Of a DNA stretch of 5,645 bases, positions 1 to 5,645 are shown in pieces. The translations under genes and the position numbers were made by a program. Positions within the stretch are counted from its first letter, which is position 1, and each line of letters starts with the position of its first letter. The stretch covers positions 1,776 through 7,420 of the forward strand of contig MGSU01000011.1 of NCBI GenBank assembly GCA_001799195.1. Reading direction: 5' to 3'. The notes under the pieces were generated by a model. It was not told the DNA's origin. It was given only the letters and a program-made list of their open reading frames with translations, and searched no databases. The stretch is from Deltaproteobacteria bacterium RIFOXYA12_FULL_61_11 (GTDB taxonomy: Bacteria > Bdellovibrionota_F > JAHFAK01 > YA12-FULL-61-11).

Positions 1-1
1 G

Positions 2-307
2 GCGGTCGGTTGGTTGGGCGAAAGCGAGGGCTCGACCATACCGGCCTTCGGGGCAGCAGCCTTGGCCGGGCTTCCGGAGTTGAGCTGGTGGCTTGCCAAC
101 GGCACGAGGTCCGAGCATGATGCGGGACTGTTCACCTTGCTGCTTTGTGTTCCGGCCGCGGTGCTGGGCTATCACGCCAAGGCCCTACAGTCCGGGATCG
201 AGGTCCTGCAGGGAATTGTGTTTGCTCCGCCCAGGTTTTCCGTGGCCGAACTCGAAGTCGGCGATGCCCCGCTGGTCGAGTTGGAATTGCTGCGTGGCCA
301 CTTCTGA
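2..307 (+). CDS. C-terminal part of an unidentified upstream protein (5' end outside window)
   Basis: The reading frame is open from the first complete codon at base 2 to the TGA at 305-307, so this is the last roughly 101 residues of a gene that begins before the window. A TTG at 14 could act as a start, but the open frame before it argues for truncation by the window edge. The visible part has a hydrophobic stretch (around LFTLLLCVPAAVLGYH) followed by an amphipathic segment and an acidic tail ending in ELELLRGHF. The order small/hydrophobic segment, then a Pro-containing hydrophobic helix, then a charged helix faintly recalls the C-terminal part of MotA/TolQ/ExbB-type membrane proteins, but this is only an impression. 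A probable terminator follows directly and the next gene starts 260 bp later behind its own promoter, so it is probably not part of the downstream gene set. Confidence 0.55.
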   Translation, partial: AVGWLGESEGSTIPAFGAAALAGLPELSWWLANGTRSEHDAGLFTLLLCVPAAVLGYHAKALQSGIEVLQGIVFAPPRFSVAELEVGDAPLVELELLRGHF

Positions 308-340: not shown

Positions 341-369
341 TTGACCACTTTGACGCAGCGTGCTATATA
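341..369 (+). promoter_or_regulatory. Extended -10 sigma-70-type promoter for the four-gene set
   Basis: TTGACC at 341-346 matches five of six bases of the -35 consensus. After a 17-bp spacer, TATATA at 364-369 serves as the -10 element, and the TG at 361-362 one base before it makes an extended -10 (TGnTATATA). The predicted transcript start is near 376, giving a leader of about 190 nt before the first gene at 568. The promoter begins one base after the T run of the probable upstream terminator, so the four-gene set appears to be transcriptionally separate. Confidence 0.6.
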
Positions 370-567: not shown

Positions 568-801
568 ATGAAGAACGAAGCCATCGTCATGGCCATGTTG
601 CTGGGTATGTCGGGCATGATCGGTTACGCAAAACCGAACCCGGCGCTGAAACTCCTGATTGAAAAAGAAACCAAGGCCGACAAAGAGCTCAAGACCAAAC
701 CCGAGGTCATCCCTCCGAGCATCGAGGCGCGGATAGAGAAGAGGGATTTATCAATAGAGCCATATGATTCATGTGGTACCCATTTTACGAATGAACGATA
801 A
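568..801 (+). CDS. Small protein with signal-like N-terminus; candidate YcaO substrate (precursor peptide)
   Basis: This gene encodes 77 residues and its family is not recognised. The ATG at 568 is chosen because GGGAGGGGGG lies a few bases upstream. An in-frame ATG at 499 and a longer open frame before it lack such a site. Residues 5-21 are hydrophobic (AIVMAMLLGMSGMIGYA) after a short MKNE start, with a possible signal-peptidase site after A21. Residues 22-60 are highly charged (KPNPALKLLIEKETKADKE and on), resembling a helical leader. The tail, residues 61-77, ends PYDSCGTHFTNER and holds S68, C69, T71 and T74, the residue types that YcaO cyclodehydratases convert to azolines. The gene heads a set with a YcaO gene, which is the main reason to suspect a RiPP precursor. 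A secretion signal on such a precursor would be unusual, so a small periplasmic accessory protein is the main alternative. The last codons are AT-rich, unlike the leader codons. Confidence 0.65.
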   Translation: MKNEAIVMAMLLGMSGMIGYAKPNPALKLLIEKETKADKELKTKPEVIPPSIEARIEKRDLSIEPYDSCGTHFTNER

Positions 802-816
802 TGTCATTATAACTCA

Positions 817-2376
817 ATGAAAATACAGTTTTTATTCTGTATTTCTATTCTTCTACCCGTTTATCTCCTGGGATCACCCCGGGAAAATGGGAGACAACCA
901 ATGCCAAAAAGATTTTTCCGTTTATCATACTATGAACTTCCTCAAGCCATAGATACTTCAAGGCTCGGTTCTATTTCCGAATACTACCTCGCCGCCAATC
1001 TTGGCGGTACCCTGGTCGTCCTTGGGGCCGCCGATCAATATTATTCCTGCTTGGCCAGGCGTTGGGAGGTAGACCGGACCAAGAACACCCTCACCTTCAC
1101 CCTGGATCCGAGGGCCCACTTTAGCAACGGCGACCCCATCACGACCGAGGACGTGGTCTCTACCTTCAAACGGCTGGCCCTCAATGGGTCCTTCCATTTC
1201 GCCGTGCGGGAACTTCTGCTCGGCGCCGACCGCCTGCAACGCATGGAAGATCCTTTTCCCGGGGTGGTCGCGCTGGACGCTGCGCAGGTCCGCTTCACCT
1301 TTCACCAACTCAGCCCGCTCAGTCTCTATCTTTTCACCATGGCCGATACCTCCATCCTGCACCGCAGCCAGGTAGAGGGAGCGAGGTTAGCCGTAGACAA
1401 CTGGGCGGTCAGTTCCGGCGCGTACAGTGTAGCAGCATGGGAACCCGGCAAGCTCCGCCTGCGCAAGAACCCGCACTTTCCGTTGATCGAGCCGACCAGC
1501 CTCGAAGAACTGGAATTGGTTGAGGTCCGTGAACGGGACAAGCTCATCGAAGGCCTGGTGAGCGGCGGTCTGCAGTATACTCTGGAGAGCTTTCTCACCA
1601 CCGAAGCGGGCTACGACAAGCTGCTCGCTTCCCCCAGCATTGAGATCAGACCCCGCTCGTATTGCGCCACGATGTTTCTTTTTCTGTTTCCCCGGCTGGA
1701 ACTGATGCAGAGCAAGGCCAACCGCCAGGCCCTCTATCGACAACTGTATCAAGCCAAGCTCGACCTACGGCCGCTGAAGAACGAGTGGTTCTCCCCTGCC
1801 TATCACCTGTACCTGCCGACCCAACTTGGCAAACCCAGCCAAGAAGAGGTCGAGACCTTGCTTGCGACCTTCCCGTCCGAACCTCCACGGGCGCTTCGCG
1901 ACAACCGCTTCGAATACCTCTACATGCCCTGGCTCTTCGATGACCGCAGCGGGAATATCTTGATCGAGTTCATGCAGAAGTTCGGTTTCGTCGCCAACGC
2001 CAACCGCTTCGTCTCGAATGAGGACTGGGTCGCCCGTAAGCCCAAGTATTTGTTCTTTGGATCTCCTTTGTACATCGATGAGCGCGAGTTGCACGAGACC
2101 TTTTCGTATATGCTGTCGGTCGGGTTGTATTTCAAGGAGAACGCAGAGAAGGTGAGGGCGCTCAATCTTCGTCTTGCCGCAGAGCAGGACGACTTCAAGC
2201 GCGCCGCCCTCACCAAGGAAATCGGGCTGCTCCTGGTCGATGACGCGCTGGTCTTTCCGCTCTATCATGTCATCCGTCAGGATTTTCTGCATCGTGAGTA
2301 CGAGTTCAGCGCGGTCAACGGATTTCACGGTACGCCGACCCTGTGGCGACTGCGCAAGCGTGCCCCACAACCATGA
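817..2376 (+). CDS. Family-5 (OppA/DppA-like) extracellular solute-binding protein
   Basis: The 519-residue product fits the length and layout of the SBP_bac_5 family, which binds peptides and related ligands, usually in the periplasm for an ABC importer. The clearest signature is at residues 90-120: NTLTFTLDPRAHFSNGDP followed by ITTEDVVSTFKRL, matching the family pattern of a predicted strand, F-x-(D/N)-G-x-P-(V/I)-T-A/T-E-D-V. Later segments (WAVSSGAYSVAAWEPGKLRL, and FPLYHVIRQDFLH near the end) also fit. Residues 1-20 look like a Sec signal peptide (hydrophobic FLFCISILLPVYLL) without an obvious lipobox. No permease or ATPase gene accompanies it, so it may serve sensing, peptide capture or presentation rather than import. 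ATG 817 has no clear Shine-Dalgarno sequence; in-frame ATG 901 has GGGAG seven bases upstream but would delete the signal peptide. The stop overlaps the YcaO start. The first about 145 bases are AT-rich compared with the rest of the gene. Confidence 0.85.
   Translation: MKIQFLFCISILLPVYLLGSPRENGRQPMPKRFFRLSYYELPQAIDTSRLGSISEYYLAANLGGTLVVLGAADQYYSCLARRWEVDRTKNTLTFTLDPRAHFSNGDPITTEDVVSTFKRLALNGSFHFAVRELLLGADRLQRMEDPFPGVVALDAAQVRFTFHQLSPLSLYLFTMADTSILHRSQVEGARLAVDNWAVSSGAYSVAAWEPGKLRLRKNPHFPLIEPTSLEELELVEVRERDKLIEGLVSGGLQYTLESFLTTEAGYDKLLASPSIEIRPRSYCATMFLFLFPRLELMQSKANRQALYRQLYQAKLDLRPLKNEWFSPAYHLYLPTQLGKPSQEEVETLLATFPSEPPRALRDNRFEYLYMPWLFDDRSGNILIEFMQKFGFVANANRFVSNEDWVARKPKYLFFGSPLYIDERELHETFSYMLSVGLYFKENAEKVRALNLRLAAEQDDFKRAALTKEIGLLLVDDALVFPLYHVIRQDFLHREYEFSAVNGFHGTPTLWRLRKRAPQP
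2373..2376 (+). promoter_or_regulatory. ATGA stop-start overlap coupling the binding protein and YcaO genes
   Basis: The YcaO start ATG (2373-2375) overlaps the binding-protein stop TGA (2374-2376). There is no strong Shine-Dalgarno sequence just upstream (the bases are GCGTGCCCCACAACC), so termination-reinitiation is the likely route to YcaO synthesis. The upstream in-frame GTG-like start at 2343 is not needed. This ties the amounts of the two proteins together and suggests a functional link. Confidence 0.55.
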
Positions 2377-3467
2377 GTCTTGAAGAACTGTGGCACCTCC
2401 GGAATGAACCGCGGAGTTACTCCGAACGGGTGGAGCTCTTGTTGGGGCACCTCGACGCCGAAGCGGCGAAAGGGATGGTCACGGACCTTGTAATTTTCGA
2501 AGACGAGCCGGAAGATCCTCTCGACCCCTCCCTCTGCCGCTTCCTGATAAAGTACCGAGAACGAGAGGGGCGACCAGTGATCTGTACGGGCATTGCTCCA
2601 AACAGAGAACGGGCCTTGCTCAAAGCCTTGGCCGAGGCCGTGGAAAGAACTTGCTTTTACGATCGAGGGTTATCCTGGCGCACACTCGACTGCAGCGCAA
2701 ATCGATGGAGTGACGCTGGGCCTGTCCTTGAATCGACCAACGGGCTGGCCTTTCACACCGAGGTGCAGCCCTGTCTGTTGGCCAGCCTGTGCGAGTTGGT
2801 CGAACGCCATCATCTCGCCTTGCACTGGTATACAGCGCAACCGGCTCTCGGTCGTCTGAACTGTCAACGGTTGCCCTTATTGGGACAGGCAGAAGAAGTC
2901 CTGCGCTCGCGAGGAGCCGATTTCCATGCTCTTCTCCTCGACCGGCTTGGGCCACTCACGACGGTGGGATTGCTGGCCCGCACCAAGCGCGAGGATGTGG
3001 GATTTCACCTTCTGTTCTCGACGGCTTGCGGTTTGGAACTCGAGCCGACTCTCCGCCGGGCTTGGGGCGAATTGGTCTGTCAATATCGCAGTCATCCCCT
3101 GCGGCGAGCCTTGGAGCGAGGTGGTCCTCCTGACACGGTTACCAGCATCGAGGAGCACGATCTGTTTTATCAGCGGCCGGACCGCCTGGCGGTTTTCGAC
3201 ATGCTGCTGGACTGTGAACCATGCTCGGACCTACCGGCCCAAGAAGTCGGGGTCGAAGTGTTGCCGAGTTTCTTGCGGGAGTGGTCGATCGAGGTCGCCG
3301 TGGCACAATTGCCTGAATCCTTGGCAGGAACGTGGCTGATGCACTGTGCTTCCCCGCGGTTGGTGAATTTAGGGTTCGGTAAACGCGAGAGCCTCAATCG
3401 TACGAGGCTTGAAGCGATACTCGGGAGGTCCTTGCCGGGAACGTGCCCCCCACACCCGTTGCCTTGA
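2373..3467 (+). CDS. YcaO-domain protein, probable azoline-forming cyclodehydratase
   Basis: The 364-residue product carries the YcaO fold signatures. The first is GIAPNRERALLKALAEAVER (73-92) with the ATP/Mg-binding ExxER at E88-R92. The second is ASLCELVERHHLALHW (137-152) with ExxER at E141-R145, and a later E233...Q237 segment follows the usual G-x-(A/C)-x-x-L-E-P-x-L-x-R-A pattern. SIEEHDLFYQRPDRLAVFDMLL (258-279) matches the usual acidic-His segment. The protein ends exactly in PHPLP (360-364), the Pro-x-Pro-x-Pro tail characteristic of azol(in)e-forming YcaO enzymes, which use ATP to cyclise Cys, Ser or Thr in a peptide backbone. The Ser of the usual SxxExxER motif is Ala here. No RRE or E1-like domain is fused: the first 60 residues are too short for one, and no partner gene is visible. 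ATG 2373 forms an ATGA overlap with the preceding stop, implying translational coupling to the binding protein. Alternatives are thioamide or amidine chemistry. The YcaO assignment is firm; the exact reaction is inferred. Confidence 0.9.
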   Translation: MSLEELWHLRNEPRSYSERVELLLGHLDAEAAKGMVTDLVIFEDEPEDPLDPSLCRFLIKYREREGRPVICTGIAPNRERALLKALAEAVERTCFYDRGLSWRTLDCSANRWSDAGPVLESTNGLAFHTEVQPCLLASLCELVERHHLALHWYTAQPALGRLNCQRLPLLGQAEEVLRSRGADFHALLLDRLGPLTTVGLLARTKREDVGFHLLFSTACGLELEPTLRRAWGELVCQYRSHPLRRALERGGPPDTVTSIEEHDLFYQRPDRLAVFDMLLDCEPCSDLPAQEVGVEVLPSFLREWSIEVAVAQLPESLAGTWLMHCASPRLVNLGFGKRESLNRTRLEAILGRSLPGTCPPHPLP

Positions 3468-3481
3468 TCGGTCTTGTGACC

Positions 3482-3487
3482 AGGAGG
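3482..3487 (+). promoter_or_regulatory. Consensus AGGAGG ribosome binding site of the kinase gene
   Basis: AGGAGG sits six bases before GTG 3494 in the 26-nt gap after the YcaO stop. It is the best Shine-Dalgarno match in the set after the first gene and decides the start at 3494. The kinase is therefore translated independently of YcaO although probably on the same transcript. Confidence 0.65.
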
Positions 3488-3493
3488 CCACAC

Positions 3494-5224
3494 GTGCCCA
3501 AAAAACTCACTCTGGTGATCCTCGGCGGCACCATCTTGTCGGTGTTTCTTGCACTGATCGGCGGTCTGGTGCTCCAGAACATGGTCGAGCAAAGTCTCGC
3601 CGAGGATTTGACCCTCGAGCGGCAGCGCCACTATGAGTATGTGATAGGCGGTGTTCGCACGTCGCTGCTGCTGGCTGATTTCCGCAAGGTCGAACAGGAC
3701 CTACAATCGGCTCTTGGCGGGGAAGAAGTTGATGAAATTATTCTCTATGATGCGACTGGGAAGGTTGTGCACAGGATCGACGCACACAACGGTAACTCAG
3801 GAAAAGCTGTTGAGCAGGTGTCGGTCGGGATCTGGTACGACGAAAGTGGGCGCGAGCCCTGGGGCACTGCGGTCTTCAACCTGCATCGACGCAACAGCGC
3901 GCTGCAGAATACCTTACGCGGTCTCCTGCTCCTCGTGGCAGGGGTCGGCCTCCTGCTTTTCATCGTCTTCGCTGTCACCGTCCTTCTGGCCTTGGCCAAG
4001 GAATACCGGTTGTATCGCCGCTTGGCCATTGAGATTGTCGGCGCCAAGGGAGGTCTCGAGGAAGGAAGACGGCTCCCCCTGCCGGTCTTCGAGGAACTGC
4101 GCCGGCTGGCCGCTGAGTTGGAACGGAACAACCACCTGTTGCGCCGGCAGACGGAATTGGCTGCGGTCGGCCGGACCACGGCCATGTTGGCCCACGACCT
4201 GCGGAAACCTTTTGCACTCTTCAAGGTGGCGCTCGGCAGGGTGCTCGAACTCAACGAGGTGGGAGACCAACAGGTCGGGCAAATCCGCCAGGTCGAGGCC
4301 GAACTCGGTCATGCCGAGCGCATGCTCGAAGATCTTTTGGCTGCGACCAGCGAGCGCAACTTGATCCTGCTGCCCGAGGATCCGGTGCAACTTGCCGAGG
4401 AGGCCCTTGCCTCGTCATTTCCCACAGGCGTGCCGGCCGAACTCCACCTTCGCCGGGAACTTCGAACAACCCGCCCTGTCCGCGCCGATCGACGGGCTGT
4501 CGAACGCATCCTTCTCAATGTGATTCAGAACGCGGTCGAGGCTTCGCACGGACAAGGACCGGTGACGGTCCGCACCCAGGACGGCGGCGAAGGTCAGGGG
4601 CAGGTACTATTTTCGGTGCACAATCATGGCAGTTATCTGCCGCCCGAGTTACACGAGCGTATTTTTGAACCCTTCTACACCAGCGGAAAACGCGGGGGAA
4701 CCGGCCTGGGTTTGGCCATCTGTCGCAAGTTGGCAGAAGAACACGGCGGCACCATCTGGGTGCAAAGCGAACCCGAGGAAGGTACGACCTTTTTCGTAGC
4801 GTTGCCGGCCTGGGAGGGTGCCGAGGACAGCGCGAAGGTGAAACCTGACGTGCCGCACCCAAGGGAAGGGCTGGTCCTGGTCGTTGACGACGACGAGCTG
4901 CTTCGCACCCATACGGTCGAGTTGGTAGCCCGTCGATGGGGCCGGGAAAAGGTCGTCTCCGCTGCGACCCCGGCCGAGGCCCGTGCCGCTCTTGAGGCTG
5001 GGGGAATACGCCTCGTCTTCACCGATCTTGAATTGGGCGTTCCGGGGGACAACGGTCTCGACCTGGCCCGCTGGATCCGCCTCCATTACCCCGCTCTGCC
5101 CGTGCTCCTAGTCACCAGCGCCGATGCCTCGCTCGGCAAAACCGAACTGGAACAGGGCATCGCCACCGCCTGGCTGCGGGCCCCGCTCAATGCCGAAACC
5201 CTGGCCGGGGTGCTGCCGCTGTAG
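3494..5224 (+). CDS. Membrane hybrid sensor histidine kinase with C-terminal receiver domain
   Basis: The 576-residue product has a transmembrane helix at 5-27, a periplasmic region at about 28-142 containing VDEIILYDATGKVV (79-92), typical of small PDC/Cache-like sensor folds, and a second helix at 143-168. A linker helix leads to the HisKA domain with MLAHDLRKPFALFK (phospho-accepting H234). The HATPase domain has the N-box NVIQNAVEAS (342-351), FEPFYTSG (391-398) and GGTGLGLAIC (401-410). The receiver domain (about 459-576) has the acidic pocket DDD (465-467), phospho-acceptor D511 in FTDLELG and T541/S542. The usual Lys-Pro near its end is replaced by LRAP (561-564), so the conserved Lys is missing. 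The G1-box Asp is Asn (HNHG). GTG 3494 is chosen because AGGAGG (3482-3487) lies six bases before it; GTG 3443, 17 codons upstream and overlapping YcaO, has a weaker site. No DNA-binding output is present. Confidence 0.92.
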   Translation: MPKKLTLVILGGTILSVFLALIGGLVLQNMVEQSLAEDLTLERQRHYEYVIGGVRTSLLLADFRKVEQDLQSALGGEEVDEIILYDATGKVVHRIDAHNGNSGKAVEQVSVGIWYDESGREPWGTAVFNLHRRNSALQNTLRGLLLLVAGVGLLLFIVFAVTVLLALAKEYRLYRRLAIEIVGAKGGLEEGRRLPLPVFEELRRLAAELERNNHLLRRQTELAAVGRTTAMLAHDLRKPFALFKVALGRVLELNEVGDQQVGQIRQVEAELGHAERMLEDLLAATSERNLILLPEDPVQLAEEALASSFPTGVPAELHLRRELRTTRPVRADRRAVERILLNVIQNAVEASHGQGPVTVRTQDGGEGQGQVLFSVHNHGSYLPPELHERIFEPFYTSGKRGGTGLGLAICRKLAEEHGGTIWVQSEPEEGTTFFVALPAWEGAEDSAKVKPDVPHPREGLVLVVDDDELLRTHTVELVARRWGREKVVSAATPAEARAALEAGGIRLVFTDLELGVPGDNGLDLARWIRLHYPALPVLLVTSADASLGKTELEQGIATAWLRAPLNAETLAGVLPL

Positions 5225-5263: not shown

Positions 5264-5645
5264 TTACCCGAGCATCCAGTGCCGGTCCAGCCGATCCGGC
5301 GCGAGGAGGGTCGGGGTTCGTACTGTAGGCTCCGTCGGCGAGGCCGAGGCGTGCACCCGGAAGGATGCTGTGAGCGGCGGATACAGATGATCCCCTCCGG
5401 CCGGACCGGCGACGAGTTCCGCGCATACACGGTACCGTCCTCGGCCGAGGAGGGACGTGTCGAGGATCAGGTTGGCCCGCGGACATGGATCTGTTGGGTG
5501 TTGCAGGTGATCGATCGGCAACGAAGCGCCCCACAGGAGGACCTCGCCGGCCAGATCGTTCTCGAGATGAAGCCGGACCAGCAACCTCGGCGCAACTCCC
5601 TGCTCGCGAGAGGGGATCGGGAACCCGATACGCAAGGTTCCCTCG
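5264..5645 (-). CDS. C-terminal part of a probable Wzt-like polysaccharide-export protein (5' end outside window)
   Basis: On the minus strand the frame is open from the window edge to a TAA at 5266-5264, about 126 residues. The TTG at 5635 is not needed as a start because the frame stays open before it. The visible sequence (for example LLVRLHLENDLAGEVLLWGA, then LLGRGRYRVCAELVAG, then LTASFRVHAS) alternates short strands with a Pro/Gly-rich turn. It resembles the C-terminal beta-sandwich of Wzt-type ATPases, which recognises the end of an O-antigen or related glycan before export. The last about 25 residues after FRVHAS look like a disordered tail. The ATPase domain would lie outside the window, so the assignment rests on the pattern of one domain only. 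It is convergent with the kinase gene and has no visible link to the YcaO set. Confidence 0.5.
   Translation of the reverse strand, partial: EGTLRIGFPIPSREQGVAPRLLVRLHLENDLAGEVLLWGASLPIDHLQHPTDPCPRANLILDTSLLGRGRYRVCAELVAGPAGGDHLYPPLTASFRVHASASPTEPTVRTPTLLAPDRLDRHWMLG

Follow-up and report, generated by a model that had tools for sequence, protein, structure and literature searches.

A recurrent cassette of small peptide, YcaO enzyme, OppA-class binding protein and hybrid kinase as a candidate peptide-signalling unit of two-membrane bacteria

The stretch of DNA considered here (the window, 5,645 nucleotides, G000:C11:1776-7420) belongs to a 4.64-Mb metagenome-assembled genome (MAG) of 87% completeness, whose phylum is represented by only two genomes in the collection. 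It carries four co-directional genes on the + strand, which encode in order a small peptide, a substrate-binding protein (SBP) of the SBP_bac_5 family, a YcaO enzyme and a hybrid histidine kinase (Table 1). An earlier note, made from the letters alone, had described this set with its spacing and its family assignments, and these are borne out: the gaps agree to the nucleotide (15 nt at 802-816, an ATGA overlap at 2373-2376 and 26 nt at 3468-3493), and Pfam recovers SBP_bac_5, YcaO and Response_reg as well as HATPase_c (E 6.7e-29). The note had also read the four genes as a single unit for making a modified peptide and sensing it, or sensing an envelope state through it, with the SBP as the link between peptide and kinase. 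This reading is now supported by the recurrence of the set, by replacement of its maturase, by co-divergence of its parts and by a fusion of SBP and kinase, from which we infer its chemistry, binding and signalling.

The promoter proposed ahead of the genes stands in part, as the TTGACC-17 nt-TATATA box is present and a stricter promoter scan did not list it. Strong Shine-Dalgarno-like runs are found upstream of the small gene and of the kinase, with none before the SBP or the YcaO gene, which would suggest much peptide and little enzyme if one RNA is common to all. The cassette had been described as devoid of an E1-like/ThiF protein, a dehydrogenase and an exporter, and a Pfam scan of the window and of the flanking genes scanned agrees. 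In particular, no gene for an E1-like or ocin-ThiF partner or a RiPP (ribosomally synthesized and post-translationally modified peptide) recognition element (RRE) lies in the window or among the scanned flanking genes of the surrounding locus (L003). ATP-binding cassette (ABC) permease or ATPase genes are likewise lacking among the flanking genes examined, and a mere ABC-import role of the cassette was rejected because there are no permease genes.

Table 1. Positions of the cassette genes and their features in the window
Feature	Position	Strand	Basis
Candidate sigma-70-type promoter, TTGACC-17-TATATA	341..369	+	10/12 consensus positions; consensus match only
Small gene, predicted peptide precursor, 77 aa	568..801	+	Open reading frame; strong Shine-Dalgarno-like run directly upstream; position as in relatives' Sec-signal frames
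Candidate core, last 16 residues, SIEPYDSCGTHFTNER	751..798	+	Sequence; analogy with other YcaO-cassette peptides
SBP_bac_5 substrate-binding protein, N-terminal signal, 519 aa	817..2376	+	Pfam 1.6e-24; model; fold search
Stand-alone YcaO, candidate peptide maturase, 364 aa	2373..3467	+	Pfam 7.8e-17; model; fold search; invariant residues
YcaO C-terminal PHPLP (PxPxP-like)	3450..3464	+	Alignment A1
Hybrid histidine kinase, GTG start, 576 aa	3494..5224	+	HisKA, HATPase_c, receiver
H-box MLAHDLRKPF	4184..4213	+	Sequence; phospho-acceptor His234 codon 4193-4195
Receiver domain, residues 461-546	4874..5131	+	Pfam Response_reg 3.9e-11; alignment

The small peptide begins with a Sec-like signal (about residues 1-21, MKNEAIVMAMLLGMSGMIGYA), has no lipobox and a single Cys, and ends in the candidate core ...YDSCGTHFTNER, whose Ser, Cys and Thr are, by analogy, residues that a YcaO enzyme could modify. 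Small open reading frames (ORFs) of this kind were sought with an automated rule, cruder than SignalP, that takes at most 160 codons, Lys/Arg near the start, a hydrophobic stretch and a stop within 160 nt of the SBP. The rule missed the small gene of the window, the frame of which is open upstream to 145, and the gene was assigned from the ATG at 568. Chryseobasin was considered as a relative of the peptide and dropped (E 0.073, far below the cut-off).

The AlphaFold model of the SBP (pLDDT 83, pTM 0.82) shows an intact cluster-C binding protein; the nearest structure is AapF (Z 33.4), with OppA, DppA and MppA close behind (Z 31-33), over about 455-475 residues. Domain and fold both place the protein in SBP_bac_5 (cluster C), and the model makes it a candidate receptor of the peptide, of the OppA/MppA/AapF class. 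A decayed, deletion-riddled copy of this SBP, at 85-88% DNA identity, lies on contig C194 of the same genome (L011, 1934-2428, minus strand) and adjoins the gene of a Cys-rich repeat protein (2544-5087).

The YcaO enzyme is likewise modelled as a complete domain (pLDDT 83, pTM 0.86). Its nearest folds are the archaeal stand-alone YcaO 6cib (E 1.8e-12) and 6peu, McbD (6gos, E 3.1e-11) and the heterocyclase 4v1v. Twelve cassette YcaOs were aligned and scanned; every one matches PF02624, and across this divergent set (alignment A1) E88, E91, G124, E144, R145 and E233 are invariant; from knowledge of the family, we take E88, E91, E144, R145 and E233 to be residues of the ATP-Mg site. Of the features that mark enzymes of thiazole/oxazole-modified microcin (TOMM) clusters, the C-terminal PxPxP is present as PHPLP, a partner gene is absent, and many cassette relatives end in PHPxx or HPxx.

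In the kinase, two predicted transmembrane helices flank a periplasmic segment of about 110 residues. The H-box motif is common to the kinases of two further cassettes of the source genome and of 65 named loci described below. Past the receiver stretch given in Table 1, the usual conserved Lys of this domain is apparently replaced by Arg (AWLRAPL).

The source genome has only five SBP_bac_5 loci, namely two near full-length family matches and three of the cassette type (contigs C11, C114 and C182), and with the window SBP as query a distantly related sequence turned up on C114 (22% identity). The cassettes of C114 and C182 are laid out as small peptide, SBP, radical SAM/SPASM enzyme and hybrid kinase. 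C11 and C114 share 32% identity in the kinase and about 20% in the SBP, and their maturases are non-homologous. When the whole genome was searched with the window kinase, the kinases of C114 and C182 came out far ahead of the rest (E 3e-44, with the next best at 4e-25). The radical-SAM cassette peptides, of 46-50 residues, have a near-constant signal and variable cores, both of which contain W-S-N near the end, a sequence that we take to fit the aromatic-X-Asn motif of cyclophane-forming SPASM enzymes, and the YcaO peptide has SCGT; maturase and peptide core change together. Comparison of C114 with C182 gives 87% identity for the kinase, 83% for the radical SAM enzyme and 60%, with saturated silent sites, for the SBP, which indicates that the recognition parts change faster than the machinery. 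The GC content at third codon positions of the two SBP genes (L012:4916-6478 and L022:3293-4909) is about 0.30-0.31 against about 0.7 in their neighbours, and it looks as though the SBP was exchanged alone. A homologous secreted gene (MKTSRVC...GGATSA.CP.FGP; L012:9577-10464 and L022:1-195, minus strand) follows each of the two radical-SAM cassettes and may be a fifth member of them.

Relatives in other genomes were reached along two routes. The H-box, as the DNA pattern MLAHDxRKPF used for finding loci only, led to the 65 named loci, nearly all from Oligoflexia, Silvanigrellales or Bdellovibrio-labelled MAGs. A cassette-type SBP occurs in 27 of them and no SBP_bac_5 in 38, and the pattern was ruled out as a cassette-specific marker. 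Profile searches of these loci and the window gave 16 YcaO matches. Because the pattern is not specific, a search that starts from YcaO was chosen as the unbiased test, and a YcaO profile (A1) was needed since single-sequence searches found almost no kin: none among genome contigs, viral contigs, plasmids and phages, and in 386 genomes none except one 29% match, whose locus has neither SBP nor kinase.

The profile was run over 58 genomes of the phylum of G346, with neighbours not used as a criterion, and gave 16 matches at E<=1e-50, the neighbourhoods of 15 of which were examined. YcaO homologues lying without the SBP, the kinase or the small gene were what the earlier note had named as telling against a unit. 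The SBP directly adjoins YcaO in all 14 testable matches, 12 of which also have the kinase, and a small ORF precedes the SBP in 9 of the 9 YcaO cassettes with enough upstream DNA. The remaining match (L192) begins at a contig edge and has a kinase, which brings the kinase to 13 of 15; of the two matches without it, L196 ends inside YcaO and L197 shows none in the stretch examined. Weaker matches, from other YcaO families, mostly stand alone, as was to be anticipated, and two of them (L183 and L199) have all three genes. The expectation that the genes co-occur across distant genomes with the small gene kept also finds support: a profile search of 386 other genomes found SBP, YcaO and kinase together at two matches (G268 and G179), both absent from the genome list of the phylum of G346, and in G268 a Sec-signal peptide of 63 residues stands in front. 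Upstream of this last cassette there is an array of short repeats that is reminiscent of a CRISPR array (L212:5911-7913). That four unrelated co-directional genes should have come together by chance is scarcely credible, since no fewer than three phylum-level groups have the exact order and a single genome has the layout three times.

The position of the maturase is filled by further enzymes. Genome G001, of the same class and reached via the SBP of C182, has a major facilitator superfamily gene, a radical SAM enzyme, two SBPs, a Sec-signal peptide of 46 residues and a hybrid kinase. The SBP of C182 led also to a third class of maturase: a DUF4135 (LanM-dehydratase-like) gene precedes the SBP in G179, G346, G437, G441 and G411, with the kinase after the SBP; in G411 at least the start of the kinase is present before the contig ends, and a LanC-like gene adjoins. 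Three of these genomes (G179, G437 and G411) have, before the DUF4135/SBP cassette, a small peptide with a D-L-D-K-L-E-type motif. One peptide gene, with six tandem MDLDKLE repeats, lies before a DUF4135 gene at L100:4780-4998. Other genes in the slot encode an MNIO enzyme (L117, 3.7e-21), a methyltransferase (L125 and L147) and a YcaO together with a JmjC protein (L155). At L111:696-3989, SBP and kinase are fused into one protein of 1097 residues, which has no signal peptide and no obvious transmembrane helix between the parts and may be cytoplasmic.

The interchange of enzymes also bears on the substrate of YcaO. Stand-alone YcaOs with non-RiPP substrates exist, as in archaeal McrA thioamidation, and E. 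coli YcaO is linked to RimO; with 6cib and 6peu as its nearest folds, the window enzyme might act on another protein, such as the SBP, the kinase or a ribosomal protein, instead of the small peptide. We consider this very unlikely, as the same slot is also filled by radical SAM/SPASM, DUF4135 with LanC and MNIO enzymes, and the small secreted ORF is kept.

The small Sec-signal ORF is indeed a regular part of the cassettes. Besides the 9 of 9 YcaO cassettes, a count that excludes L153 and L168, whose upstream DNA (278 and 158 nt) was judged too short, the same rule finds it in both radical-SAM cassettes of the source genome and upstream of none of 23 ordinary SBP loci. In the L113/L154 pair the last 20 peptide residues are identical, while the YcaOs are 59% identical, and the dN/dS of the small ORF is 0.23, which in this one pair indicates purifying selection. 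The cassette of L143 has two peptides, both with a GG-x-C-x-x-N-C motif near the end. At L145:6328-7007, near a MLAHDVRKPF kinase, are several bacteriocin-like small ORFs in which VCGG(V/L)C motifs come after double-glycine-like leaders.

An SBP tree served to test whether the cassette SBPs are simply ordinary OppA proteins. Cassette and ordinary SBPs are separated on it by one label change, against about 20 in shuffles, and the window SBP falls together with 18 further SBPs from cassettes (support 95). Sub-clades track the class of maturase, within the limits set by long branches and a weak deep split. In parallel, distances were correlated over 13 YcaO cassettes (in brackets, with two near-copies left out): r is 0.89 (0.68) for SBP and YcaO, 0.62 (0.32) for SBP and kinase and 0.54 (0.19, not significant) for YcaO and kinase. 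Kinases from one genome resemble each other; SBP and YcaO track each other, not the genome. When an enzyme of the cytoplasm and a protein of the periplasm co-diverge in this manner, they should have a ligand in common.

The same results bear on the notion that the peptide is antimicrobial or prey-directed, and that SBP and kinase sense outside peptides (nutrients, prey lysate) and switch its production on. Diverse peptides are bound by OppA-class SBPs, and most named relatives come from Oligoflexia, Silvanigrellales or Bdellovibrio MAGs, lineages with predators. However, an environmental sensor need not co-diverge with the maturase, SBP sub-clades that follow maturase chemistry would not be expected, and the YcaO cassettes show no evident immunity gene or exporter, so that this explanation appears improbable.

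Collectively, we judge it somewhat better than an even chance that the four genes form an operon-like unit of a widespread cassette of peptide, RiPP-type maturase, OppA-class SBP and sensor kinase, in which the modified peptide is read by SBP and kinase. The small gene would give a precursor whose N-terminal Sec signal doubles as leader, and the cytoplasmic YcaO, with ATP, would modify backbone amides near the Cys, Ser and Thr of the core, to azoline or thioamide. Sec would then take the modified peptide to the periplasm, where it would be trimmed and captured by the SBP, and the loaded SBP would engage the periplasmic part of the kinase, so that its phosphorylation state shifts and a signal passes via the receiver domain, with an action that might lie within or between cells. 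Consistent with a pheromone two-component system, a secreted small precursor, a modifying enzyme and a kinase are co-encoded and conserved together. In its wider form, which we would accept or reject with equal readiness, the proposal is of a signalling of diderms that is indifferent to the maturase: the peptide would be modified by at least four unrelated classes of enzyme (YcaO, radical SAM/SPASM, LanM-like DUF4135 and MNIO), a dedicated OppA-class SBP would drive the hybrid kinase, and core, maturase and SBP would form the specificity set with the kinase as common output.

Several points weigh against the proposal. The window peptide has no detectable homologue, its role being drawn from position, signal and analogy. 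Support for the cassette SBPs as a single clade is weak (43), as are the deep branches of the tree. SBP-kinase pairs of the same clades occur with no visible maturase (L121, L148, L149, L150 and L161). No DNA-binding response regulator or dedicated exporter is present in the window; an extra receiver-like gene is found 3' of the kinase in some relatives (L214 and L215). The G1 box of the kinase family has Asn for the usual Asp (IGNSxS; about 4616-4660 in the window), which leaves kinase activity uncertain, and the Asn-type box is found across the 65 related loci, including those without SBP. Finally, the precursors of several YcaO-cassette relatives (L110, L113, L131, L152 and L154) carry a lipobox, which points to membrane anchoring instead of release. 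These lipobox-bearing relatives keep alive the main rival, in which the modified peptide would act, in the periplasm or on a lipid anchor, as a probe or chelator (for metal, redox or envelope damage) whose loaded or cleaved state is read by SBP and kinase, so that the cassette would sense the envelope and not a signal sent by cells. The best PDB sequence match of the SBP, the methanobactin-system binding protein MbnE (PDB 5icq), agrees with such a role, as do the bufferin-type Sec-signal RiPPs, which bind copper and some of which are lipoproteins (PMC12452194, PMC12636315). Yet in paralogous cassettes of one genome cores and SBPs differ strongly while maturase and kinase are alike, as expected of specificity pairs and not of one metal site, and the window peptide, as described above, lacks a lipobox and has one Cys; we therefore hold the probe to be rather unlikely, if the most serious of the alternatives.

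The flanks of the cassette hold further genes. The upstream gene (window 1-307; L003:979-2082) has a weak likeness to LpoB/CsgG-type lipoproteins (E 3e-4 to 8e-4), and the kinase gene faces a convergent radical SAM/SPASM gene whose product is extended at length at its C-terminus (window 5264-5645; L003:7039-9219, minus strand), with a gene for a B12-binding radical SAM protein 8 kb beyond the latter (L003:15470-17818). No Rfam family matched in the window.

Peptide pheromones that come with their own modifying enzymes have been described chiefly in Gram-positives, and we know of no natural role for most orphan RiPP enzymes of diderms. If true, the peptide-reading cassette proposed here would be a new kind of peptide signalling in two-membrane bacteria. 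Its layout ties several classes of RiPP enzyme to a single kind of receptor and provides each with an immediately testable ligand-receptor pair. It would also provide a search rule, namely an SBP_bac_5 gene flanked by a small Sec-signal ORF and a kinase, for RiPP pathways that can escape enzyme-based mining.

Each part belongs to a known family, and the whole cassette matches no system known to us. A search of the open-licence literature gave no combination of YcaO, solute-binding protein and histidine kinase, nor of RiPP, hybrid histidine kinase and binding protein. TOMM clusters (McbBCD, SagBCD) share with the window the YcaO, a small precursor with core Cys, Ser and Thr and a PxPxP-like C-terminus, whereas the window cassette has no E1-like/ocin-ThiF or RRE partner, dehydrogenase or ABC exporter, and its precursor is Sec-signalled. 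Bufferins and RiPP-lipoproteins (PMC12452194, PMC12636315) are also RiPP precursors with Sec or lipoprotein signals, but they depend on MNIO enzymes with DUF2063-type partners, and a search through the text of both papers turned up neither a kinase nor a binding protein. The methanobactin operon with MbnE likewise joins a RiPP enzyme to an SBP_bac_5 protein. This operon differs in relying on a TonB receptor and sigma and anti-sigma factors for uptake and regulation, and is not known to include a kinase. LuxP-LuxQ, TorT-TorS and ChvE-VirA pair a periplasmic binding protein with a membrane hybrid kinase, but their ligands are not known to be encoded alongside, whereas the window cassette has peptide gene and maturase next to the sensor. 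In ComQXPA and agr-type pheromone systems, as in the cassette, a small precursor is encoded together with a dedicated enzyme for its modification and with a sensor kinase, and the specificity parts diverge fast; these Gram-positive systems use the kinase itself as receptor and have a DNA-binding regulator, whereas the window cassette has an OppA-class SBP, an interchangeable RiPP maturase and a hybrid kinase.

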